DNA of 64,000 nucleotides from a virus: positions 368,845-432,844 of the IMG/VR virus record IMGVR_UViG_3300010403_000705. One strand, given 5' to 3'. Below are positions 3,847 through 59,794 of the stretch, one piece after another; positions within the stretch are counted from its first letter, which is position 1, and every line of letters starts with the position of its first letter. A program made the translations under genes and the position numbers. The notes beneath the pieces are model-generated. The model did not search any database. It worked only from the letters and a program-made list of their open reading frames with translations, and was not told the DNA's origin.

Positions 3847-4335
3847 ATGAGTAATAATGGATTCGATAAAATTACTGAAATGAAAAAACGTTTGCAAGAG
3901 ACTATAAAGAATGATGGAATAAAAATTCTAAAAGAAGAAGTAGACCGTATTTTAGAAATTTTACCAGAGGTGGAATGTATCTTATGGGGACAAAATAATA
4001 ATGTATATAATGATGAATCTTATGAGTTTAGAATGTTTGGGATAGATTTTTTACCTTCTACGACATGTTCATGGTATACTAATTTTATTAAAAGTCTAGA
4101 AAACGATCATGGATCCATAAAAAATGCTGTACATTTTCATGGGGAAACTTTAGAACATCTACATTCTCTTTCAAAAAATATTTCGCAACATCGTGATAGA
4201 ATGTTATTTATTTACGACACACTTTCCTCTTTTGGTAAAAGTATTCCAGAAGAAGTTCTTCAAGTTCTCGGAAATGTAACGGTCCGAATAGATAGAAAAA
4301 ACTTCTCAACCCAAGAATATGATTGTGGATATTAG
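3847..4335 (+). CDS. Unknown protein, 162 aa
   Basis: Not recognised. The charged helical N-terminus is followed by a mixed domain with EVECILWGQNNNVYNDESYEF and a central HFHGETLEHLHSL cluster of His. It overlaps the following gene by 17 bases, suggesting joint translation. A start with GGAG upstream (ggagcatcaggattaaaATG) is plausible. Confidence 0.6.
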   Translation: MSNNGFDKITEMKKRLQETIKNDGIKILKEEVDRILEILPEVECILWGQNNNVYNDESYEFRMFGIDFLPSTTCSWYTNFIKSLENDHGSIKNAVHFHGETLEHLHSLSKNISQHRDRMLFIYDTLSSFGKSIPEEVLQVLGNVTVRIDRKNFSTQEYDCGY

Positions 4336-4974: not shown

Positions 4975-6534
4975 ATGTATGAAACTAATTTAGCTGCCGT
5001 GCGACAATCCAAGCACCAAGAATTAAATAGTGGTGCTTATCCACTTGCTTCAGAAAGTGGAATGAAGATTAATCTGATCCTTGATCAGATCAATACCACT
5101 GCCCCAGCAATTTCTTTAGATCCTAGTGAATTAGGTGATATTATTACTGCACATGGTAGAATTACAGCTATTCGTAAGTCAGGTGGTATTACTTTTATAA
5201 AGATTTTTGATTCTACCGGCTCATTACAATTAATTGCCAGTCGATCAGTTTTACTTAATTATGAACAACTTAAGCTCTTAGATTTGGGAGATATAGTTGA
5301 AATTCAAGGTAAGATGTGTCGTTCAAAGACTAGTGAACCATCTCTTTTAATTATTCAATGGTCAGTACTCACTAAGTCACATCGCCCGCCACCCGAAAAA
5401 TATTTGGGTATTTCAAATGTTGAAACTAAGTATCGAAAGAGATATTTAGATCTCATGAGTTCTGATGAGAGCCGTGCTGTATTTACTATTAGGAGTTACA
5501 TTATACGTTCTCTACGTGAGTTCATGGAACGTAATAACTTCATGGAAATGGAAACTTCTACTCTAAACACTATAAATAGTGGAGCTAATGCTTTACCATT
5601 TATTACACGACATAATTATCTAGAAATAGATCTATTTTTACGTATTGCGCCAGAACTCTATCTCAAGAGATTGTTAGTCGGTGGATACGATAAGGTTTTT
5701 GAAATAGGTAGAAATTATAGAAATGAAGGCGTATCTACACGTCATAATCCAGAGTTTACTATGATGGAATTCTATGAAACCTACGGTAGGTTTCCAGATT
5801 TGATTTCCTACACCAAGGAAATGCTACTTTATGTTGATAATTATTTAGAAAATTTAAAGGGCAATTTTGCTTATTCATACTTCCAAGAATGGAAAAATAA
5901 GAGATCCTTTACTTTATCTGCATTCAAAGTAATTACCATGTCAGAAGCTGTTAACAATGCATGCGCTAAGTTTGGCGTGACTATTGACAACCTTGGTGTG
6001 CATATTAATGACATTGATAGTCTTCAGTCAAAGAAAATTGATATTAATAGTCTATTAAATGATTTAGAATCTTGCCCTTCACAAGGCAGATTGACATCAA
6101 TATTATTCGAGTATTTTGCTGAACCATTCTTAACAGAAGATTATCGAGAAACTATTAATGGCGTCTCATATTCTGTTCCAGTATTTATTACAGAATATCC
6201 AACAGAAATTTGTCCACTTGCTAGAAAGAATGATCAAAACCCTAATGTTTGTGATAGATTTGAGTTGTTTGTAGATGGCAGGGAGTTATGCAATGCATTC
6301 CAAGAATTGAATGATCCTAATGAACAGGCTAGTAGATTTCAAGAACAACTTGAATTAAATCAAAAAGATCCTATGGGTTATGATGAAGATTACATTGAAG
6401 CATTACAATATGGTATGCCACCATCAATTGGTTTTGGTATGGGAATAGATCGTTTAGTTATGTTATTAACTAATTCTACATCTATTAAGGATGTTATTTT
6501 GTTTCCTACATTAAAAAAGGTTAATAATGTCTAA
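4975..6534 (+). CDS. lysS: Lysyl-tRNA synthetase, class II
   Basis: A full-length class II LysRS (519 aa; bacterial enzymes about 500). It has an N-terminal OB-fold anticodon-binding domain (residues ~50-130), then KRYLDLM. Motif 2 is at about 242-262 (FEIGRNYRNEG, HNPEFTMMEFY). Motif 3 is near 486-493 (GFGMGIDR). It charges tRNA-Lys with lysine in the cytoplasm. All visible catalytic motifs are intact, so activity is expected. The array encodes two Lys tRNAs (36503, 38885) that it could serve. Its end overlaps the next gene by eight bases. Confidence 0.96.
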   Translation: MYETNLAAVRQSKHQELNSGAYPLASESGMKINLILDQINTTAPAISLDPSELGDIITAHGRITAIRKSGGITFIKIFDSTGSLQLIASRSVLLNYEQLKLLDLGDIVEIQGKMCRSKTSEPSLLIIQWSVLTKSHRPPPEKYLGISNVETKYRKRYLDLMSSDESRAVFTIRSYIIRSLREFMERNNFMEMETSTLNTINSGANALPFITRHNYLEIDLFLRIAPELYLKRLLVGGYDKVFEIGRNYRNEGVSTRHNPEFTMMEFYETYGRFPDLISYTKEMLLYVDNYLENLKGNFAYSYFQEWKNKRSFTLSAFKVITMSEAVNNACAKFGVTIDNLGVHINDIDSLQSKKIDINSLLNDLESCPSQGRLTSILFEYFAEPFLTEDYRETINGVSYSVPVFITEYPTEICPLARKNDQNPNVCDRFELFVDGRELCNAFQELNDPNEQASRFQEQLELNQKDPMGYDEDYIEALQYGMPPSIGFGMGIDRLVMLLTNSTSIKDVILFPTLKKVNNV

Positions 6535-9336: not shown

Positions 9337-10677
9337 ATGAATAGAGTTAGATTTGCTCCCAGCCCTACTGGATCTCTTCATGTAGGAGGAGTTCGTACAG
9401 CCTTATATAATTGGTTATGGTCTAAGAAAATTGGTGGTCAATTTATATTACGTATTGAAGATACTGATTTTATTAGAAATGATCCATCAAGTTATGATAA
9501 TATTTTACGAACTTTAGATTGGTTAGGTTTACATTGGGATGAGGGTCCAGATATTAATGGTAAATTTGGTCCTTATACTCAATCAGATAGGCGAGATTTT
9601 TATAAGGCATTTGCAAATTCTTTAATTGCTGATGGCAAAGCATACCGTTGCAATTGTAGTATGCAACAATTGATGCAATGGAAATCGCAATCTCCTAATT
9701 GGAAATATCCTGGCATTTGTAGGGACAAGAATATTGACTCTAGTAACTCACATGTTGTAAGACTAAAAGTAGATACTGATGCTATAATTTCATATAATGA
9801 TTTAGTTTTTGGAAAAATAACAACTCCTACATCCTCATTATATGATTTTGTTTTGCTTAGGGAAAATGGTATTCCACTTTATAATTTTGCAGCTGTTGTG
9901 GATGATCATTTAATGCATATTGATTTAGTAGCTAGAGGTCGTGATCATATGATTAATACTCCCAATCAAATTTTATTATATAATGCTTTTGGCTGGGACC
10001 TCCCATCGTTTGCGCATCTTCCTATGCTATTAAACATGCAAGGAGACAAACTTTCTAAAAGAGATGGATCAGTCTCAGTAAATGAGTTTAGAAAACTTGG
10101 ATTTTCTGCCAACGGGTTATTAAATTATTTATTAAGATTTGGTTGGTCTCACGGTGACCAAGAACTTTTCTCTATGGGGGAAATGATTGAATTGTTTTCT
10201 TGGGAATCATGTAAAAAATCGGATGGTCGATTTGACATGGCAAAAGCACTTGCTATTAATGGTAAAAACTTGATGAGGTCCAATTTAGTATCTAATGAAA
10301 CATATATTAAAGATTTAGCGTCATTTGGAATTTGTGCAGATGATAAAATTATTGAAATGGTACGAGCCAAGGCTAAGTCCTACCTAGAAGCAAAAGAATT
10401 ATTATCCTTTTTGGTAGATGGTGCATTAACTAATTATCCTATGGATATTCCAGAAGATGGAAAAATTCATATCAGCAATTTGTTAAAAATTTACTCGCAA
10501 CTATCTTTAATAGATAAAGATGCATTAGTATTAGCGACTAAATCTTATTGCCAAGAAAATAATTTAAATTTTCCAAATATTTCTCAATTGTTAAGACATT
10601 ATTTTACTGGTAAAACGATTGGTCCAGATATTTATAAAATTATAGAATATTTATGTCATTACAAAAATATCCATTGA
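9337..10677 (+). CDS. gltX: Glutamyl-tRNA synthetase
   Basis: A class I synthetase of 446 aa, slightly shorter than usual bacterial GluRS (~470). The N-terminal FAPSPTGSLHVGG holds the HIGH-type motif (HVGG, residues 15-18). ILRIEDTD follows, and KLSKRDG near residue 239 is the KMSKS-type loop. A CxC pair near residues 106-108 and a later Cys lie in the zinc-binding region. It charges tRNA-Glu; a tRNA-Glu(TTC) is encoded at 33325. Whether it also charges tRNA-Gln (33954) cannot be judged. Confidence 0.95.
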   Translation: MNRVRFAPSPTGSLHVGGVRTALYNWLWSKKIGGQFILRIEDTDFIRNDPSSYDNILRTLDWLGLHWDEGPDINGKFGPYTQSDRRDFYKAFANSLIADGKAYRCNCSMQQLMQWKSQSPNWKYPGICRDKNIDSSNSHVVRLKVDTDAIISYNDLVFGKITTPTSSLYDFVLLRENGIPLYNFAAVVDDHLMHIDLVARGRDHMINTPNQILLYNAFGWDLPSFAHLPMLLNMQGDKLSKRDGSVSVNEFRKLGFSANGLLNYLLRFGWSHGDQELFSMGEMIELFSWESCKKSDGRFDMAKALAINGKNLMRSNLVSNETYIKDLASFGICADDKIIEMVRAKAKSYLEAKELLSFLVDGALTNYPMDIPEDGKIHISNLLKIYSQLSLIDKDALVLATKSYCQENNLNFPNISQLLRHYFTGKTIGPDIYKIIEYLCHYKNIH

Positions 10678-10703: not shown

Positions 10704-11324
10704 ATGAGTAAAGATCGAATAACAACATCGCCTAATCTATTAGAATCCTCACCTTTACATCATGAAGCTAGAACACTAGGAGATATTCATTTCCGAGCTT
10801 GGTCACATAATGTACAAGATAAGTATAAAGGGATGGCGGTAGAAGATATTAAAGATGCGTTACAAAAAACATCTTTGCCATATGCTGTATGTTTTGAGCA
10901 TTGGATTGGTGATTTTAATATGGGTACTGGCATACGTAACGCAAATGCTTTTAATGCTAGGGAAGTTTTTTATATTGGTGATAAAAAATGGGATCGCCGA
11001 TCAGCAGTAGGGGTGCATAATTATATTGATGTTAAATGGGTTCCCACAATAGAAGAATTTCTATCTTTAAAAGATAGATATGTTTTCATCGGAGTTGATA
11101 ATATCCCTGGCTCTGTACCGTTAGTGAACTTTAAATGGCCAAAAAATACTTTAATGATTTTTGGTGAAGAAGGTGTGGGTCTTACTCCAGAAATACAATC
11201 ACATTGTGAAGCTATTGTAGCTATTGAAATGTTTGGCAGTGTTCGATCTCTTAATTGTGGAACAGCATCGGGTATTGTAATGTATGATTTTGTATCTAAA
11301 TTAGGAAATATTTATGAAAAGTAA
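10704..11324 (+). CDS. SpoU/TrmH-family RNA 2'-O-methyltransferase
   Basis: Three SpoU motifs are visible: an early N-x-G-x-x-x-R-x-A-like segment (MGTGIRNANAF), then MIFGEEGVGL (motif 2, the knot strand), then IEMFGSVRSLNCGTASGIVMY (motif 3). These form the SAM-binding trefoil knot that methylates the 2'-OH of tRNA or rRNA. The target is unknown, but the window's many tRNAs make tRNA attractive. It overlaps the next gene by 11 bases. Confidence 0.88.
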   Translation: MSKDRITTSPNLLESSPLHHEARTLGDIHFRAWSHNVQDKYKGMAVEDIKDALQKTSLPYAVCFEHWIGDFNMGTGIRNANAFNAREVFYIGDKKWDRRSAVGVHNYIDVKWVPTIEEFLSLKDRYVFIGVDNIPGSVPLVNFKWPKNTLMIFGEEGVGLTPEIQSHCEAIVAIEMFGSVRSLNCGTASGIVMYDFVSKLGNIYEK

Positions 11325-14093: not shown

Positions 14094-14624
14094 ATGATTA
14101 TAGCTCATGCGAGTAAAAACTCCCACTGTTCTTATTGTGGTTCATATTTTTCAGAACAGGAAAAGTGGCCAAGACGATGCATCATATGCGACAATATAAC
14201 ATATTGTAATCCTACACCAGTTAGCGTTTCCTTAATAAGGGTCTTAGTAGATTGTAATAAATTAGGCATTCTAGTTGTTAGAAGAGCTGCTGATCCTAAA
14301 TTTGGAGAGTGGGCATTACCAGGTGGGTATTTAGTAGTACAAGAAAGCTGGGAAGAAGGTGCAGTTCGCGAGCTTCATGAGGAAGTTGGAATTAAATTAG
14401 ATCCATCAAAAATTGAAACATATCATGTTTCAAATGCCACCGAAAACAGTAACTTACTAATTTTCCACACATACCAAGACATTATAATGTGGAATGAAAT
14501 ATTAGAACATTTCATTCCAAACAATGAAGTGTTAGATATAGATGTTTGTTTTCTACCTACGGAATTATGTTTTTCTACACATACAAAATGTCTAGAAAAA
14601 TATCTTAAAGAGATTTCTAAATAA
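14094..14624 (+). CDS. Zinc-ribbon Nudix hydrolase (NudC-like)
   Basis: An N-terminal Cys4 ribbon (CSYCG, then CIICD) precedes a Nudix box with GGYLVVQESWEEGAVREL and HEEVGI. The zinc ribbon plus Nudix arrangement resembles NADH pyrophosphatase/NudC and related ADP-ribose hydrolases. The NudC SQPWPFPxS motif after the box is not apparent, so NAD decapping is not established. ATG 14094 is preferred over the in-frame ATG at 14070. Confidence 0.85.
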   Translation: MIIAHASKNSHCSYCGSYFSEQEKWPRRCIICDNITYCNPTPVSVSLIRVLVDCNKLGILVVRRAADPKFGEWALPGGYLVVQESWEEGAVRELHEEVGIKLDPSKIETYHVSNATENSNLLIFHTYQDIIMWNEILEHFIPNNEVLDIDVCFLPTELCFSTHTKCLEKYLKEISK

Positions 14625-14660: not shown

Positions 14661-14778
14661 GGAGCGATGGCGGAATTGATATACGCAAGCGGTAAAAAAC
14701 AGTGTATGATTTTTTTACCGCTTAATTAGTATAATACACTATACTAATTTATAGGTTTGACTCCTATTCGCTCCACCA
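14661..14778 (+). tRNA. Aberrant tRNA-Leu-like RNA, 13-bp anticodon arm, kissing loop
   Basis: Acceptor GGAGCGA/TCGCTCC, discriminator A and encoded CCA (to 14778) are present. So are a Leu-type D-arm, an 8-bp variable arm (14726-14733 with 14740-14747) and T-stem ATAGG/CCTAT. Instead of 5 bp plus 7 nt, the anticodon arm is a 13-bp helix (14687-14699 with 14711-14723) with an 11-nt loop and no assignable anticodon. The loop segment AGTGTAT (14701-14707) is perfectly complementary to ATACACT (14734-14740) in the variable arm, which would allow a loop-loop contact. Either a tRNA with a ~20-nt insert or a tRNA-derived regulatory RNA. Confidence 0.7.
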
Positions 14779-21919: not shown

Positions 21920-23900
21920 ATGTTATGGCTCCTGTTTCGGGATTTACTTTTCTTTTTAATATTTCTCCAGTTACTGGATCAATTTTCTCTTCTTCATTAG
22001 AGATACTTCCTGCTCTTTCTAAGATATTCTGTAAATACATACAGGCATTATTAATAATGTTGATTTGTGTGGCATATGGATTATTATATGCAGGACCGCT
22101 TGGACCGGCAAAATTAGTGCCTTGAGGACCTATACTTTTTATCTCTAGTTTAGAAAAGTAATTTACTAATCCTTCACCCATATTTATAACTTGATTAATT
22201 GCTTCAACTTCTTTGTCGTTAAGAGATTCTTTTTCTTCAATCCCCATTTTATCTAGTGTAGATAAAGTGTCTTTGAATTTGTGAAATGATTTGCTAAGTC
22301 TAACACTAAGAACAAATTGACTAAATTCTGGAAGCAATTCTACTTCTTGTTGTACTGCTTTCCTTAAAGCACTTACAGCATTTAACATTGATTTCCTATC
22401 TTTTGCTTTTGTTGCATCTGCAATGCTATCCAAATATGGTTTGAATTTTGATTTTTTCTCTTCTTTAACTTTTCTATTTTTTGAGCCTACCAATCTATCC
22501 TTAGCAGTTTTCCTTTCAGCTAACATTGCTTTAGATAAATTTTCTACATAGCCCGAAAGTTTAATACTCGTCCATTCGCGTACTCCAGGTAAGTGCTTGT
22601 TTTGATACCTACCGAGACCAGATTCTTCACGAGCTTTTTGTAGTTCTTCAGTTATTTCAACCTTTTGCATTTTTTTAGCAATCTCAGTCGCTTGTTGCTT
22701 ATTCCATTCCGCAATTGGTATTTTTTTATTTTCTGCCGCTTTAATCTTATCAAGTAAGTTTTTTAGAGTTGCTTGACCCATCGGAGTTTTACTCATATGA
22801 GGTAAGAAATCTAGTAATTGTTTTCTTAACTTAGTTTCTTCGCCTTTGTTTTTGTCTGCGCTACGCATGGTCTTGCGTAAAAGTAATTCATGTTCAAGCC
22901 TTAATTTTTCTAGTGGATCTCTAACATTTTCATATTCTTTCATTAACTGATCGGTTTGACGTGTTAGAGTGTTTTGACGAATAGCAGCTTTTGCAGCTAT
23001 TCTTTCTTGTTTTGCTTTTTTAAGCTGCCCTCTAATGTTAGCTAGTTCTTGTTGTGTAGCAGGATCTGGTGCCACTTGATTTTCTGCATTGAGTTTGGCT
23101 TCTTTAGCAGTCAATAATTTTAATTGATCTAAAAGGGTTATTAATTTTCTTTTCCTTTCAGCAGTTTTAGGGTCTCTATCAGTAGGTAATTCTTCTAAAT
23201 ATCTTTGTCTTTCGTTTTCGTAACTTTGAATCCAATCTTTTGGCTCTTTGACATTACGAACAAAATATCCTCTTCCTTTGCTTTGCGCCTCTTCCATTCC
23301 TACCCCACCTGACAAATCAAATTTTGCCACGGCTTCTGGATCAATATCTGATAAATCACTAGTGCTTTTATTGCGACCAGCTAATTCATCTTTTAATGAC
23401 TGTTCATTAAATTGATTCTTAACAGCTCTTATTTCTTTTTCGGCTGATGGATTATCACCTTTATTAAATCCTCCTCCCGCTTCTTTAGCGCGTCTACTTA
23501 AATCATTATGCATATCATTAAGTACGCTTTCTAAATCATTTAGTGGACTCTCTTCATCATCTGGATCCACGTCTTCTAGTTGGGTATTAATAAAATTACC
23601 AATAGCTTTTTTTACAGTATTAAAACCTCCATTGATATCCAAAGCTTTACGATACATATCAGCGATTAATAAAGCTTCAGAAACTATGTCTGGATCTGAT
23701 ACAACGCGTGCTAATTCTAATAATTTATTATATAATTCAGTTTCCCCAGGATTTCTTTCGGTAGAAGGACCTTCCTCATCATCAGGCATTGTATATGTTT
23801 GTGGTGATTTATCTTGTGCCAAAGCAATGATTTTATAATCATTTACAGCGTTGTAATAAAAATGGTCAATTTTTTGTATTATAGTTGATAGTTTTAACAT
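21912..23900 (-). CDS. Large charged coiled-coil protein, 662 aa
   Basis: Not recognised. It begins MLKLSTIIQKIDHFYYNA and consists largely of charged helical sequence, with strong coiled-coil character from ~210 to 440. The end has INNACMYLQNILERAGS. It shares an N-terminal KIDHF motif and C-terminal pattern with the smaller neighbour at 23945-24625. This suggests a structural or scaffold-like role in the phage particle, but that is inference. One of only three intact minus-strand genes in the window. Confidence 0.7.
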   Translation of the reverse strand: MLKLSTIIQKIDHFYYNAVNDYKIIALAQDKSPQTYTMPDDEEGPSTERNPGETELYNKLLELARVVSDPDIVSEALLIADMYRKALDINGGFNTVKKAIGNFINTQLEDVDPDDEESPLNDLESVLNDMHNDLSRRAKEAGGGFNKGDNPSAEKEIRAVKNQFNEQSLKDELAGRNKSTSDLSDIDPEAVAKFDLSGGVGMEEAQSKGRGYFVRNVKEPKDWIQSYENERQRYLEELPTDRDPKTAERKRKLITLLDQLKLLTAKEAKLNAENQVAPDPATQQELANIRGQLKKAKQERIAAKAAIRQNTLTRQTDQLMKEYENVRDPLEKLRLEHELLLRKTMRSADKNKGEETKLRKQLLDFLPHMSKTPMGQATLKNLLDKIKAAENKKIPIAEWNKQQATEIAKKMQKVEITEELQKAREESGLGRYQNKHLPGVREWTSIKLSGYVENLSKAMLAERKTAKDRLVGSKNRKVKEEKKSKFKPYLDSIADATKAKDRKSMLNAVSALRKAVQQEVELLPEFSQFVLSVRLSKSFHKFKDTLSTLDKMGIEEKESLNDKEVEAINQVINMGEGLVNYFSKLEIKSIGPQGTNFAGPSGPAYNNPYATQINIINNACMYLQNILERAGSISNEEEKIDPVTGEILKRKVNPETGAITYE

Positions 23901-26155: not shown

Positions 26156-26291
26156 TAAAATGGCAAAATTATGGTTTTTAAAGTTTAAAAAAGATAATCG
26201 ATGTTAAAAAAATAACTAGGACTAAGTTATATCATTATCATTAATTATCTGTTTATCGTTGAAATTTTTGTTCAAATATAAGGAATGTATT

Positions 26292-27851
26292 ATGTCTTCA
26301 AAAAAGTTATTTTCTAATAAGTCTGTGGATGTTAAGTTAGTTAAACCAACTGATACAGTAAATAATGCTGGTGGTCAAGCCTATTCTTTAGATGATAAGG
26401 CAGCCTTGGCTCAATTAGCCATGACGGGATGTTTCAATGGTACTTATTATGTTTCTGATGAAGATCAATTAAAAAAAGTATTAGATTTAGCAAATAAATT
26501 GCCAGCAAAATATGTTGCACAACTAGCTGTTTATTCTCGTCAATATGGTTTAATGAAAGATATGCCAGCAGTTTTGGCAGCGGTAGTGGCAGGTAAGGAT
26601 TCAGATCTTTTATCAAAAATTTTTGATAAGGTAGTAGATTCCCCCAAAATGTTAAGAAATTTTGTACAAATTCTTCGTTCAGGAGTAGTAGGTCGCAAAT
26701 CTTTAGGCACTAGACCTAAGAAATTGGTTCAAAAATACCTTGAATCTTTAACTGACGAACAATTATTTATGGCTGATGTTGGAAACGACCCATCTTTACA
26801 AGATGTAATTAAATTGGTTCATCCTAAACCAACTACCAAACAACGTTCTGCTATGTTTGCATATCTCTTAAATAAAGAATATTCCCAGGATGATTTATCT
26901 TTATTAGTAAGACAATTTGAGGACTTTAAAAAGGACATGTCCAAGGACATTCCTAATGTACCTTTTCAAAAATTAACTGCTTTACCACTTACTTCTGATC
27001 ATTGGAAAAAAATTGCTTCAAATGCCACTTGGAATCAAATCAGACAAAATCTTAATACATTCGCTCGTCATAATGTCTTAAGTGATCAGGCATTATTGAA
27101 TCTTATATGTTCTAGAATAGAGGATAAGGAATTAGTTAAAAGAGCTAGAGTATTTCCTTATCAGCTTTTTACCACGTTTCAAAATTTGGAATCAAGTATA
27201 CCAACTAAGATCTCAGTTGCTTTACAAAAAGCTGCTGAACATGCATTGGAAAATATTCCAGAATTTAAAGGTAAAGTCTATGTTATGGTAGATACTTCTG
27301 GTTCTATGAGTTCGCCAGTGACTGGTAAACGTGGTACAGCTACTACAAAAATGTCTTGCATTGATGTTGCTGCTTTAGTGGCGGCAGCTATAATGAGAAA
27401 AAATTCTGATGTAGAAGTATTACCTTTTGATACTAAAGTTCATACACATAAACTGAATCCACTTGATTCGATTATGACTAATGCAAAGATTTTATCTGCT
27501 TTTGGTGGAGGAGGTACGAATTGTTCTCTTCCATTACAAGAATTGAATCGTAGAAAAGCCATGGGAGATTTAGTTATTTATGTAAGTGATAATGAATCTT
27601 GGGTTGATTCTAGCAGAGGAAAGGGGACTGCAACTATGAATGCTTGGGAAGTTTTTAAAGCTCGTAATAGAAATGCAAAATTAGTTTGTATTGATTTGAC
27701 ACCCAATACTTCTACACAAGTTTATTCTAAAAAAGACGTTCTTAACATCGGAGGTTTCTCAGATTCTGTATTTGAAGTGATAAATAAGTTCATGGAGTAC
27801 GGAAATGACGCAAATCTATGGATTAGAACAATTGAGCAGATTAAACTTTAA
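26292..27851 (+). CDS. rsr: TROVE-domain protein (Ro60/Rsr-like)
   Basis: 519 aa from ATG 26292, preceded by AAGGAATG; the in-frame ATG at 26259 has no support. The N-terminal two thirds is a helical-repeat TROVE module (LAMTGCFNGTYY, FVQILRSG, LLNLICSRIEDK). The C-terminal VWA domain has the MIDAS motif VDTSGSMS near residue 334. Ro60/Rsr forms a ring that binds Y RNAs and misfolded or tRNA-like RNAs, and in bacteria works with exonucleases and RNA ligases. Here the setting of aberrant tRNA-like RNAs and a Y-like hairpin (4599) suggests a phage-encoded RNA-binding or quality-control particle. Confidence 0.92.
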   Translation: MSSKKLFSNKSVDVKLVKPTDTVNNAGGQAYSLDDKAALAQLAMTGCFNGTYYVSDEDQLKKVLDLANKLPAKYVAQLAVYSRQYGLMKDMPAVLAAVVAGKDSDLLSKIFDKVVDSPKMLRNFVQILRSGVVGRKSLGTRPKKLVQKYLESLTDEQLFMADVGNDPSLQDVIKLVHPKPTTKQRSAMFAYLLNKEYSQDDLSLLVRQFEDFKKDMSKDIPNVPFQKLTALPLTSDHWKKIASNATWNQIRQNLNTFARHNVLSDQALLNLICSRIEDKELVKRARVFPYQLFTTFQNLESSIPTKISVALQKAAEHALENIPEFKGKVYVMVDTSGSMSSPVTGKRGTATTKMSCIDVAALVAAAIMRKNSDVEVLPFDTKVHTHKLNPLDSIMTNAKILSAFGGGGTNCSLPLQELNRRKAMGDLVIYVSDNESWVDSSRGKGTATMNAWEVFKARNRNAKLVCIDLTPNTSTQVYSKKDVLNIGGFSDSVFEVINKFMEYGNDANLWIRTIEQIKL

Positions 27852-34256: not shown

Positions 34257-34364
34257 GCAAGAATAGTTTAATGGTAGAACGCTGGAGTCCATCCAGAAGC
34301 GGTACAAAAAGAATCCACGTGCACTGGGTAAAAAAATTCTTAGGTTCAAATCCTCCTTCTTGCT
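34257..34364 (+). tRNA. Aberrant tRNA-Gly(TCC)-like, shrunken loop and long insert
   Basis: Acceptor GCAAGAA/TTCTTGC, discriminator T (Gly-like) and a D-arm like Gly tRNAs. The anticodon hairpin is CTGGA-GTCCA-TCCAG, a five-base loop carrying TCC with no usable U33. A ~45-nt insert follows in the variable region, containing a helix AAGAAT/ATTCTT around CCACGTGCACTGG. The 3' end is TCTA instead of TCCA. Probably not a standard elongator. Could be a decoy or a decaying gene. Confidence 0.6.
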
Positions 34365-34460: not shown

Positions 34461-34548
34461 GGATGAGGATCGGAGCGGGGGCGAATTGGTAAAATATTAG
34501 CTAGTCCCGAGCACTCTAAAGTTGTTGGTTCAAATTCAATCGTATCCA
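34461..34548 (+). tRNA. Degenerate tRNA-like sequence, anticodon unassigned
   Basis: T-arm GTTGG-TTCAAAT-TCAAT and 3' CGTATCC-A are clear. The best 5' partner, GGATGAG, gives six of seven pairs. A G-rich D-loop is present, then two short hairpins (GCT/AGC around AGTCCCG, ACT/AGT around CTAA), neither a normal anticodon arm. No CCA. Probably a degraded or highly modified tRNA. Confidence 0.45.
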
Positions 34549-36382: not shown

Positions 36383-36497
36383 TATTGTAATTAAGTGTAA
36401 TGGTGCATCATCTCGATAATGATACGTACGTTCAATTCGTACACTTCCAGTCGGATATAGTAGAGAGAAAAAGGTTCGATTCCTTTAATTACAATAT
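36383..36497 (+). ncRNA. Nested tRNA-like element with two T-arms
   Basis: An outer 12-13 bp helix (ATATTGTAATTAA from 36382 with TTAATTACAATAT, 36485-36497) encloses a D-like arm, an anticodon-like arm ATCAT-CTCGATA-ATGAT (CGA), and a first T-arm GTACG-TTCAATT-CGTAC followed by ACTTCCA. About 28 nt later comes a second T-arm AAAGG-TTCGATT-CCTTT. So a shorter tRNA-like unit with its own CCA sits inside a larger one. It may be two fused tRNAs or a designed double structure. Confidence 0.5.
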
Positions 36498-47070: not shown

Positions 47071-47438
47071 ATATAGTTGGTTAAGATAATCGCTGCCAAT
47101 TTTAATTGGGAGAGGAAGTTCCGAACACCAATAAAGCAGAGTGCCAGTTAACGGCTGGGTGCAGTGATGCAACTGAAAGTGTAACAGAAAATAAACCGCC
47201 TGTAAAGGTAAGGGTGAAATGGTGAAAAATGGCGAACTAAGAGTGCGCCATGTGTAAGAGACCACCGCATATTTGGTAACAAATATGGCAATACAAACCA
47301 CACTCGGTGCAAGACAAATAGAAAACGTTTGAGAATCGCTTATTCGATGTTTTCGGGTTGTTGCTTGATCCAAATAGTGATATTTGGACTAGATTAATGA
47401 TTATCCTAGACAGAATTCGGGCTACTTATTAACTATAT
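47071..47438 (+). ncRNA. rnpB: RNase P RNA (type A)
   Basis: P1 is ATATAGTT/AACTATAT at the two ends, and P2 is GATAATC/GATTATC. The conserved cores are present in order: GAGGAAGTTCCGAAC (CR-I), ACAGAAA...ACCGCC, GGTAAGGGTGAAATGGTG, AAGAGTGCGCC, GGTGCAAGACAAATAG, and ACAGAATTCGGGCTA (CR-V). About 368 nt, normal for bacterial RNase P RNA. It is the catalytic RNA that cleaves tRNA 5' leaders, presumably with a host protein subunit since no rnpA is seen. Phage-encoded copies are rare. Confidence 0.93.
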
Positions 47439-47472
47439 TTCTTTTATAAAAGTTATCTAAAACATCAATACC

Positions 47473-48141
47473 ATGAAAATACCTCTTATTTATCCCAAAA
47501 TTCCTAATGGTAATAATTGCACTCTTAAAGAATGTACCGCTTTTGAGAAATTAGATGGCACCAATATTCATTTTGTATGGGAAAAATTGGCGTACCAAAT
47601 ATTAGGAAACGGGTGGGTTTCTTTTGGTACAAGGCGTGATAGTTTTTCTTTGGAAACAAAAGAAATAGATAATTTTGTATTTAAACATCCAAATTTGAAA
47701 TTGGTTATACCAGATTTTGAGGATAGATTAAGTGAAGATTTAAATAAAAAATTTGGTTCTTCTAATTATGAGAGAGTCCGTTTGTTTACAGAGTTCTTAG
47801 GAGCCAATTCTTTTGCGGGCACACATGATAAAAATGAAAAACAATATCATACAATAATAGATTTGCAAATAGATCAGCAATTAGGCGATAATTCTTTTCT
47901 TGATCCAAAATCATTTATTAATGGGTATAAAATGTTTGGTATACCAAAAGTAGTATACCAGGGTAAATATACTGGGCAATTTGTACAAGATGTGAGGACT
48001 GGAAAATATTTAGTTAATGAGGGTGTAGTTTGTAAAGGTATTGTAGATAATAAAATCTATAGAGTAAAAATTAAAACTGATGCTTATTTAAGAAAATTGA
48101 AAAACGTATTTCATAATTCTTGGCAAGATTATTGGGAATAA
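47473..48141 (+). CDS. Rnl2-like RNA ligase
   Basis: Nucleotidyltransferase motifs in order: KLDGTN with Lys26 as the AMP acceptor (motif I), SFGTRRD, FTEFLGANSF (IIIa), EGVVCKG (IV) and YRVKIKTDAY (V). At 222 aa it is a minimal catalytic domain, close to T4 Rnl2 without the C-terminal domain. It seals nicks in RNA, for example in cleaved tRNAs, and lies 34 bases after the RNase P RNA. Confidence 0.85.
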   Translation: MKIPLIYPKIPNGNNCTLKECTAFEKLDGTNIHFVWEKLAYQILGNGWVSFGTRRDSFSLETKEIDNFVFKHPNLKLVIPDFEDRLSEDLNKKFGSSNYERVRLFTEFLGANSFAGTHDKNEKQYHTIIDLQIDQQLGDNSFLDPKSFINGYKMFGIPKVVYQGKYTGQFVQDVRTGKYLVNEGVVCKGIVDNKIYRVKIKTDAYLRKLKNVFHNSWQDYWE

Positions 48142-57712: not shown

Positions 57713-59794
57713 ATGAAACCTACAAACTTGTCTATAGAAAAATTTAGAAATATTGGTATTATGGCACATATTGATGCTGGTAAAACAACAGTATCAGAGC
57801 GCATATTATTTTATAGTGGACGTATTCATTCTATGGGTGAAGTTCATAACGGTGATACTGTTATGGATGATGATCCTCTTGAAATGAAGCACGGCATCAC
57901 CATTAATTCGGCTGCCACCACTGTGTTTTGGGGCAAAGGTGGAGATATCTATCGTATTAATTTGATTGATACACCTGGTCACATTGATTTTACAGTTGAA
58001 GTTGAAAGATCATTAAGAGTGCTTGATGGTGCTGTATGTGTTCTTGACGGATCCCAAGGTGTTGAACCGCAAACAGAACAAGTATGGAGACAAGCTGATA
58101 AATATAATGTTACTCGTATAATTTTTGTTAATAAGATGGATAAAGTTGGTGCCAGTTTTCAAATGTCTTTGGATTCTTTAAAAGAAAAATTGGGCATTAA
58201 ACCTGTAGCCATTCAATTGCCGGCAGGTGAAGAAGATAAATTCAAAGGTATTTATGATCTGGTTAACATGAAATTAATTTCTTTTGATGAGAAATCTTTA
58301 GGAAGACAATATGATATTTCGGAAATTCCTCTTTCTGCTTTGGAAGAAGTCAAGGCTGCCAGGAATCAAATGATTGAGTCGTTAGCCGATGTTAGTGATT
58401 CTATTATGGAAAAATTTTTGGAGGGTAACCTGAGCGCTATTTCGATTGATGAGATTAAAATTGCTCTTCGTAAAGGTACTATCAACAGAGATTTATATCC
58501 AGTCATGTGTGGATCCGCTCTTCGTAACAAGGGAGTTCAAATGTTATTGGATGCAATAATAGATTATTTACCTTCTCCCATTGATCTGCCAGCTATAGCT
58601 GCGTTATCTAGTACAACAGGTGAAATGTTAAATTTCAAACCAGAAGCTAATGAAAAATTAGCTGCCCTATCTTTTAAGGTCGTTAATGATAAAAATGGTG
58701 ATCTTACATTCATTAGAATTTATTCTGGAACTTTAAGTGCTGGAAGTGTGGTATTTAACTCTACTCGACAACATACAGAACGTATTTCAAAATTGGTTTT
58801 GGTTCATGCTTCAAATAAGAATGAAGAAATAAAATCAGCCGGACCAGGAACTATTGTTGCGGCAGTTGGATTAAAAAATACTTTTACTGGAGACACGTTG
58901 TGTGAAAAGAAAAATCCAATTACCTTGGAGAAGATGGAATTTCCAGAACCAGTAGTAGAATTATCTGTGGAACCAAAAACTAATGCTGACCAAGATAAAT
59001 TATCAGCCGGCTTACAGAAAATGCTTTTATCAGATCCCTCATTGAAAGCGGGTACCAATATTGAAACCGGGCAAACTGTCCTAAAAGGTATGGGCGAGCT
59101 TCATTTGGAGATTGTAGTTGAACGTTTGAAAAGCGTGCATGGTGTTGATGTTAATACTGGTAAACCACAAGTTTCCTATAAAGAAACTATCACTAAGTCA
59201 AGCCAAGCAGATTATAAGTATGTTCGACAATCAGGTGGTAGAGGTCAATATGGTCATGTAGTAATTACTATTACTCCTGCTCCTAGAGGATCTGGATTGA
59301 TTTTTGTTAATGATATTGTAGGAGGAACTATTCCAAAAGAATATGTTCCTGCTGTTGAGAAAGGTATTAAAGGAGCCATGGAAAAAGGTGTATTAGCTGA
59401 TTATCCAGTCGTAGATGTAGAAGTACATCTTGTAGATGGAAGCTATCATAATGTAGACTCAAGTACCAATGCATTCGAAATTGCTGGCTCATTGGCTTTT
59501 CAACAAGCTGCAAAGGGTGCTGGAATGGTTATTTTAGAACCAATTATGGCATTAGAAATTGTAACTCCAGAACAATTTATGGGAGATGTAATTGGTACTG
59601 TTTCATCTAGAGGTGGACATATTAAAGATTCTACTATTAGAGGTAATGCTAGAGTGCTTTCAGCTCAAATGCCATTGAGAAATTTATTTGGTTATACTAC
59701 CGAGCTTCGTGGTAGAACTCAAGGCAGAGCCACACCCTCAGCAATTTTTTCTCACTATGAAGTATGTAATCTAAAATTATCTGAACTGAAATGA
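57713..59794 (+). CDS. fusA: Elongation factor G
   Basis: 693 aa, normal length. P-loop AHIDAGKT at 18-25, switch II DTPGH (~88-92), NKMD (~142-145), and domain IV/V blocks such as QSGGRGQYGHV and LRGRTQGRA. It catalyses ribosome translocation. The segment between P-loop and switch I (HNGDTVMDDDPLEMKHGIT) differs from the usual EGAATMDWMEQEQERGIT, so GTPase control or antibiotic/toxin sensitivity may differ. Phage-encoded EF-G is rare. Overlaps the next gene by four bases. Confidence 0.97.
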   Translation: MKPTNLSIEKFRNIGIMAHIDAGKTTVSERILFYSGRIHSMGEVHNGDTVMDDDPLEMKHGITINSAATTVFWGKGGDIYRINLIDTPGHIDFTVEVERSLRVLDGAVCVLDGSQGVEPQTEQVWRQADKYNVTRIIFVNKMDKVGASFQMSLDSLKEKLGIKPVAIQLPAGEEDKFKGIYDLVNMKLISFDEKSLGRQYDISEIPLSALEEVKAARNQMIESLADVSDSIMEKFLEGNLSAISIDEIKIALRKGTINRDLYPVMCGSALRNKGVQMLLDAIIDYLPSPIDLPAIAALSSTTGEMLNFKPEANEKLAALSFKVVNDKNGDLTFIRIYSGTLSAGSVVFNSTRQHTERISKLVLVHASNKNEEIKSAGPGTIVAAVGLKNTFTGDTLCEKKNPITLEKMEFPEPVVELSVEPKTNADQDKLSAGLQKMLLSDPSLKAGTNIETGQTVLKGMGELHLEIVVERLKSVHGVDVNTGKPQVSYKETITKSSQADYKYVRQSGGRGQYGHVVITITPAPRGSGLIFVNDIVGGTIPKEYVPAVEKGIKGAMEKGVLADYPVVDVEVHLVDGSYHNVDSSTNAFEIAGSLAFQQAAKGAGMVILEPIMALEIVTPEQFMGDVIGTVSSRGGHIKDSTIRGNARVLSAQMPLRNLFGYTTELRGRTQGRATPSAIFSHYEVCNLKLSELK

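Follow-up and report, generated by a model that had tools for sequence, protein, structure and literature searches.

A tRNA-Leu-like RNA with a replaced anticodon arm, and a class of phage RNAs of the same design with exchanged cores

Introduction

RNAs that resemble transfer RNA (tRNA) without decoding are a known idea, represented by tRNA-Other of Bacillus cereus (PMC3399842), transfer-messenger RNA (tmRNA) and bacterial Y RNA, whereas the exchange of cores within a tRNA body is apparently undescribed. We found no description of such a class in the literature or in Rfam, with preprints and most subscription papers lying outside the search. The element studied here, called the target RNA, is encoded at positions 14661–14778 (+) of a 64-kilobase (kb) window, the whole stretch of DNA that was analysed, which forms the final 64 kb of the 432,844-base-pair (bp) virus record IMGVR_UViG_3300010403_000705.

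Like a canonical type II tRNA-Leu, the target RNA has an acceptor stem, D- and T-arms, an A15-U48 pair, A73, a long variable arm and CCA. Unlike it, the target RNA lacks an anticodon arm of 5 bp and 7 nucleotides (nt), lacks U33 and a Leu anticodon, contains a 13-bp hairpin, the loop of which pairs with the variable arm, and carries A19-U56. We know of no exchanged core in tRNA-Other. That RNA is likewise tRNA-like and stands outside translation, but it is a cellular pseudo-tRNA inside a larger regulatory RNA, with no phage scaffold class (PMC3399842). With tmRNA the target RNA would share a charged tRNA-like end without anticodon, and pseudoknots. Known tmRNAs are much longer, contain a tag reading frame, are of the Ala type and have no true D-stem; neither ARAGORN in default mode nor Rfam called the target RNA as tmRNA, and the genome encodes a separate one.

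Bacterial YrlA RNAs are tRNA mimics. The likeness of this Y RNA to the target RNA lies in that mimicry, and a Ro60 homologue is encoded in the same window. To our knowledge, however, YrlA has no acceptor end with a complete, CCA-bearing acceptor stem, and the target RNA matches no Rfam family. Theta ribozymes, which resemble that of the hepatitis delta virus (HDV), are structured RNAs linked to tRNA genes in phages of Bacteroidota and Bacillota, but they are separate from the tRNA, whereas the structured element of the target RNA lies inside the tRNA body; the term tRNA-like is not used in the main text describing them (PMC10879173). Finally, phage tRNAs that evade tRNA-cutting defences either carry changes in the anticodon or variable loop or are provided to offset cleavage there, yet they still decode (PMC10264068, PMC13096335), which the target RNA cannot.

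Results and Discussion

The tRNA-Leu body and its rebuilt core

The original prediction of intact acceptor, D-, variable and T-arms with an encoded CCA was borne out in every element, as read from the sequence:

14661–14667 (+): 5′ strand of the acceptor stem, GGAGCGA, 7/7 Watson-Crick pairs with 14768–14774
14668–14669 (+): U8 and G9; U8 occurs in 121/121 of the long-centre matches listed (see below)
14670–14686 (+): D-arm of Leu type, stem GCG/CGC at 14670–14672/14684–14686, loop GAATTGATATA
14687–14723 (+): extended hairpin at the anticodon-arm position, perfect 13 bp at 14687–14699/14711–14723 (100% inverted repeat), 11-nt loop 14700–14710
14701–14707 (+): kissing segment k, AGTGTAT, in the hairpin loop, exact reverse complement of 14734–14740
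14724–14749 (+): variable arm, 10-bp stem 14724–14733/14740–14749, loop ATACAC
14734–14740 (+): kissing segment k′, ATACACT, complement of k
14750 (+): U48, Levitt partner of A15 (leucine identity pair); U48 occurs in 195/203 relatives
14751–14767 (+): T-arm, stem ATAGG/CCTAT at 14751–14755/14763–14767, loop TTTGACT
14768–14778 (+): 3′ strand of the acceptor stem (14768–14774), A73 (14775) and encoded CCA (14776–14778)

An eighth acceptor pair, T14660-A14775, is possible. In the D-loop, A14, A15, G18, A19 and A20a correspond to 14674, 14675, 14678, 14679 and 14681, respectively. U56 (14758) stands opposite A19, so that the elbow pair 19-56 is swapped, the conserved G19 and C56 being replaced by A19 and U56. 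The target RNA keeps A73, A14, A15-U48, G18, A20a and U54/U55/A58 and, with its 7-bp acceptor stem and its D- and T-arms, has the body of a canonical tRNA-Leu. In Escherichia coli, leucine identity resides in A73, A15-U48, G18-U55, G19-C56 and U54-A58 and not in the anticodon; leucine charging can do without the anticodon arm, which editing nevertheless requires (PMC9976931).

The 13-bp helix with its 11-nt loop, proposed as the replacement of the anticodon arm, was recovered together with an unusually stable fold: the minimum free energy of the target RNA is −41.7 kcal/mol against a shuffle mean of −19.9, with 0/200 shuffles as good (z = −7.15). The predicted complementarity of loop bases 14701–14707 to 14734–14740 is likewise exact. 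By chance, at least seven Watson-Crick pairs arise between an 11-nt and an 8-nt segment drawn at random from the window with P = 0.0015, and between shuffled loops with P = 0.003. If the kiss opens the top pair, the variable-arm stem counts 9 bp, and a C14700-G14708 pair with A14709 bulged would leave a hairpin loop of exactly the seven kissing bases. Judged from the sequence, a loop-loop contact that locks the target RNA is likely, although no orthologue was found on which its covariation could be followed. The kissing partner belongs to the loop of the variable arm and does not directly adjoin the T-stem. Covariation is seen in other members only, unrelated phage relatives in which a hairpin loop pairs with the tail in the same topology and the pairs are compensated.

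Decoding and splicing

In the target RNA neither U33 nor a Leu anticodon nor a 5-bp stem closed by a 7-nt loop is present, which supports the earlier statement that it cannot decode normally and the description as a tRNA-Leu-like body with a replaced anticodon arm. Neither ARAGORN in default mode nor the Rfam tRNA model calls it, and no Rfam match appears up to E = 1; in a loose tRNA-body detector it is the sole long-centre case in the window with a fully paired acceptor stem.

Splicing of a ~20-nt insert to give a standard tRNA-Leu, the alternative attached to the original prediction, is disfavoured. The intron mode of ARAGORN offers a single drawing, in which removal of a 22-nt insert leaves the 'stop' anticodon UUA on a stem of 4 bp that breaks the 13-bp helix, and none of the possible loop cuts restores a Leu anticodon after U33. 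We therefore consider it hardly credible that the locus is an intron-bearing tRNA-Leu from which such an insert is removed to give a working tRNA. Speaking for it are that drawing and the short insertions that two loci seem to carry in an anticodon loop of ordinary appearance (L084 and L112; L numbers are locus labels), but across the class described below intron-type stems barely exceed expectation (27 vs 20.9).

Inserts of ~20–50 nt in a normal-looking Leu anticodon loop were observed in L164, L166, L243, L112 and L084, which stem from bacterial metagenome-assembled genomes and viral contigs; several of them read CTT ... AAAA. Group I introns sit in the anticodon loop, where these inserts lie.

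A class of long-centre tRNA-Leu-like RNAs

No orthologue of the target core was found by exact-pattern, protein-neighbour or BLAST searches, and BLAST of the target RNA in phage genomes returned short look-alikes only, e.g. the T-arm of tRNA-Tyr in Salicola phage SCTP-2. The body, on the other hand, led to many relatives in design. A pattern of Leu D-arm, over-long centre and T-arm retrieved at least 120 loci in viral contigs, while 257 gigabases of bacterial and archaeal genomes yielded 111 stretches, many of which are adjacent normal tRNAs. Among the 121 matches listed, i.e. 120 viral loci and the target RNA, 110 have 6–7 acceptor pairs, 121 have U8 and 117 have U48. Positions 19 and 56 covary strictly: 117 of these matches have G-C, 4 (target included) have A-U and none has a mixed pair; a separate scan for the A-U type gave nine contigs. 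A canonical anticodon stem was present in 4/112, no commoner than chance, ~8 being expected from random pairing by our estimate. A generic detector run over 1.19 megabases found 111 long-centre RNAs, and 0 in the reversed sequence.

After deduplication the class numbers at least 203 distinct RNAs in which acceptor (7/7) and T-stem (5/5) are fully paired, with A73 in 161/203 and U48 in 195/203, although a few of these 203 may be short-insert tRNAs instead of members. Their cores span 44–85 nt, are structured and almost all lack a canonical anticodon arm. The set is mostly viral, mostly from phage contigs, with some members from bacterial genomes that are probably prophages, and some relatives appear in Rfam as weak tRNA matches only. 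The target RNA shows the same traits, namely a Leu-type body, fully paired acceptor and T-stems, U48, a centre within 44–85 nt and no canonical anticodon arm; L382 and L384 carry the acceptor GGAGCG and the D-arm type of the target RNA, with unrelated cores. As no homologue of its core was found, it belongs to the class by design, with descent not proven.

Class members are co-directional with the genes around them (upstream 134 vs 14, downstream 123 vs 27), and some stand in arrays within which the cores differ. Over-long tRNA-like genes were also seen in another jumbo phage (L013 3074–3222; Salicola phage SCTP-2 298729–298847 and 320118–320245).

Exchange of cores on a fixed scaffold

The commonest body, with acceptor AGTCAGG, accounts for 116/203 RNAs, and a search with nearly the whole of this body fixed still returned at least 120 matches, among which those listed hold 98 distinct cores falling into 13 small families and 68 singletons. 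Short cores (14–43 nt) on this scaffold were found in only 30 contigs, and 0/22 distinct ones contain a convincing anticodon arm, one passing a loose rule with 4/5 pairs; the scaffold is therefore not an occasional broken tRNA.

Between the Riemerella prophage locus L174 and phage vB_RanS_PJN03 the flanks are 98% identical upstream and 90% downstream and the acceptor and T-stem are conserved, with one difference in the T-loop and several in the D-arm, whereas the cores are unrelated. The PJN03 copy is situated near position 22,750 of its record and carries no annotation there. Conserved flanks around unrelated cores also occur in L096/L374 and L282/L333, where the alignments were inspected, and, by flank scores, in L329/L337. 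Within the exchange pairs, core identity is about what random comparison gives (median 0.44, 99th percentile 0.56). With conserved flanks and unrelated cores in at least four locus pairs, we conclude that the cores are exchanged. Three more pairs (L303/L345, L077/L280 and L028/L132) agree with this, their flanks being shorter or weaker. In L320/L346 the core is kept. L284/L291 was withdrawn as a core swap, as it represents a register shift inside one array.

A group of long-centre Leu-like RNAs with acceptor TGTAGGG (L154, L177, L203 and L236) has a conserved core, unlike most phage cores; L154, L177 and L203 are named Pedobacter.

Structure of the class cores

Class cores are more structured than shuffles, and a preferred partner of core segments is the strand just before the T-stem. 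Seven families show compensatory changes for the helix between the core and this strand: L089/L321 (4 compensated pairs), L106/L315 (2), L288/L301/L322/L028 (1), L026/L213 (1, hairpin loop to tail), L064/L096 (1), L027/L100 (1) and, provided that the register is correct, L021/L072 (5). Stems at the anticodon position covary in L043/L305, L103/L050 and L379/L225. The covarying helices were picked by eye, and the counts support structure without being a measure of it. Four cores (L133, PJN03, L129 and L036) can be drawn in the manner of the target RNA, with a hairpin, a variable arm and a loop-loop contact.

L043 and L305 have a 5-bp/7-nt hairpin at the anticodon position (CCGCAAA, C33), the stem of which shows a compensatory change; their variable arm, capped by GNRA, has a complementary TTTG stretch.

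Genome setting

The record contains a T4-type terminase match, a tmRNA, a group of translation genes and at least 39 tRNA matches that exceed the Rfam cut-off, and we read it as a huge phage, i.e. a bacterial virus. The following features of the window bear on the target RNA or on translation:

4975–6534: lysyl-tRNA synthetase (LysRS)-like gene
9337–10677: glutamyl-tRNA synthetase-like gene
10704–11324: SpoU methylase gene
14094–14624 (+): putative NUDIX-like gene (by a motif in its translation), co-directional, 36 nt upstream of the target RNA
26259–27851 (+): Ro60-like protein with vWA_Ro60 and TROVE domains, ~11.5 kb from the target RNA
47073–47440 (+): class A RNase P RNA, complete, 247.5 bits, followed by an RNA ligase family protein at 47473
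57713–59794: translation elongation factor gene (EF-G-like)

Since no consensus promoter was found in the 36-nt gap, the target RNA is likely co-transcribed with the gene upstream. The phage RNase P RNA could mature the phage's own tRNAs. Rfam scans revealed no Y RNA partner for the Ro60-like protein. Ordinary Leu tRNAs (CAA x3, UAG, AAG, UAA) are encoded elsewhere in the same genome, so the target RNA is not required for decoding.

Two more odd tRNA-like genes of ~108–109 nt with long variable regions lie at 34257–34364 and 36386–36494 (+), and tRNA bodies of degenerate look near 34473, 35718 and 38470. On L139, of the same genome, we observed the tmRNA (1146–1498, tag ANDNAFVPMAQAA) as well as a possible amber suppressor, a tRNA whose anticodon is CUA (4138–4211).

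Interpretation and rival explanations

Taken together, the target RNA is probably a non-decoding, tRNA-Leu-derived RNA of tRNA-like maturation that is probably leucylated, with a rigid core as its active part and the same design as the phage class. Retention of the tRNA body would let the transcript be cut, protected and recognised as a tRNA: it would be transcribed together with the upstream gene, matured by RNase P, for which the phage carries its own RNA, and probably leucylated, a step that in E. coli requires no anticodon arm. The anticodon and variable arms would form a rigid core locked in three dimensions by the loop-loop contact. As to function, we lean weakly towards a role as decoy for, or inhibitor of, some tRNA-acting factor of the host, most likely a tRNA-cutting defence, a role that is possible but tentative. 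It is favoured because the rebuilt parts are those cut by tRNA nucleases and because the diversification of the cores fits an arms race. Septu and retron-Eco7, for example, cleave the variable arm of tRNA-Tyr and are countered by phage tRNA (PMC13096335).

Several results weigh against this interpretation. The reversed control also has excess structure, the three-helix kissing architecture is weakly enriched (27 vs 18 in the reversed control, of 141), and shuffle tests do not separate pseudoknotted from nested cores class-wide. As the class-wide test for crossing helices conditional on the tail helix was negative as well, and the kissing-architecture test only weakly positive against the reversed control, we do not claim a pseudoknot for the whole class. 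No homologue of the target core was found that could bear on the kiss or on a shared descent with the class, and the similar design could reflect convergence. No gene neighbour is constant across the class loci examined, and no member is tied to a particular nuclease.

A regulatory RNA on a tRNA scaffold, in which the body serves RNase P and CCA processing and stability and the core acts as an antisense, protein-binding or superinfection-immunity module, is doubtful by itself and nearly as likely as the decoy role. The conserved body with unrelated cores, the core exchange between related phages, the arrays with differing cores and the co-directionality with phage genes would suit it, and tRNA scaffolds in laboratory use follow a comparable logic. 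However, antisense targets were found neither for the target RNA in its own record nor, in the case of the L174 core, in the Riemerella genome that carries it, and the leucine identity elements U48 and A73 are kept more strictly than a scaffold alone requires. That the body and both hairpins are real while the 7-base kiss is a coincidence or intermolecular appears unlikely: the AT-rich sequence and a chance probability that goes no lower than about 0.0015–0.003 speak for it, but compensated loop-to-tail pairings recur in the unrelated L026/L213, L064/L096 and L089/L321, and so do the four further kissing cores. Several degenerate-looking tRNA genes in the genome would fit a decaying pseudogene with a chance palindrome, an idea that we can scarcely entertain in view of perfect 7-, 13- and 10-bp helices, an encoded CCA, a compensated 19-56 pair and complementary loops.

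With vWA_Ro60 and TROVE domains in the phage protein at 26259–27851, a Y-RNA-like partnership suggests itself, but the complete acceptor stem with CCA, the lack of any Rfam match up to E = 1 and the ~11.5 kb between the two genes make it very improbable. Without its anticodon arm the RNA might have left translation to serve, once charged, as a donor of leucine in non-ribosomal leucyl transfer, a role that agrees with the retained leucine identity set; this reading is more improbable still, as no transferase neighbour was seen in the class and the hypervariable cores are left unexplained. Two further candidates were rejected, an HDV-like ribozyme inside the tRNA, suggested by an X-Y-X′-Y′ order, for which cleavage would remove the D-arm and the conserved core motif was not seen, and a packaging RNA, suggested by a terminase just downstream in 7 loci and rejected because gene neighbours in the class proved mixed (helicases, DnaB, polymerase, ligase, terminases).

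Significance

Extended from the probable non-decoding, leucylated RNA to the phages themselves, it is conceivable, and we propose it with reserve, that phages, apparently mainly of Bacteroidota plus this huge phage, possess a dedicated class of leucylatable tRNA-Leu-like RNAs, the hypervariable pseudoknotted or kissing cores of which take the place of the anticodon and variable arms and are exchanged as cassettes in an arms race with tRNA-targeting systems of the host, the target RNA belonging to this class with its loop-loop lock fully developed. The class is a hidden cause of wrong or missing tRNA annotation, since standard finders skip the target RNA and miss or mis-draw others. If the proposal is true, hundreds of phage RNAs would have the body of a leucine tRNA, read no codon and carry a working part that is swapped among close relatives. 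This would represent a new mode of displaying RNA modules in cells through the tRNA maturation of the host, and it would allow a direct test of a tRNA arms race in which the answer of the phage is an RNA, not a protein.
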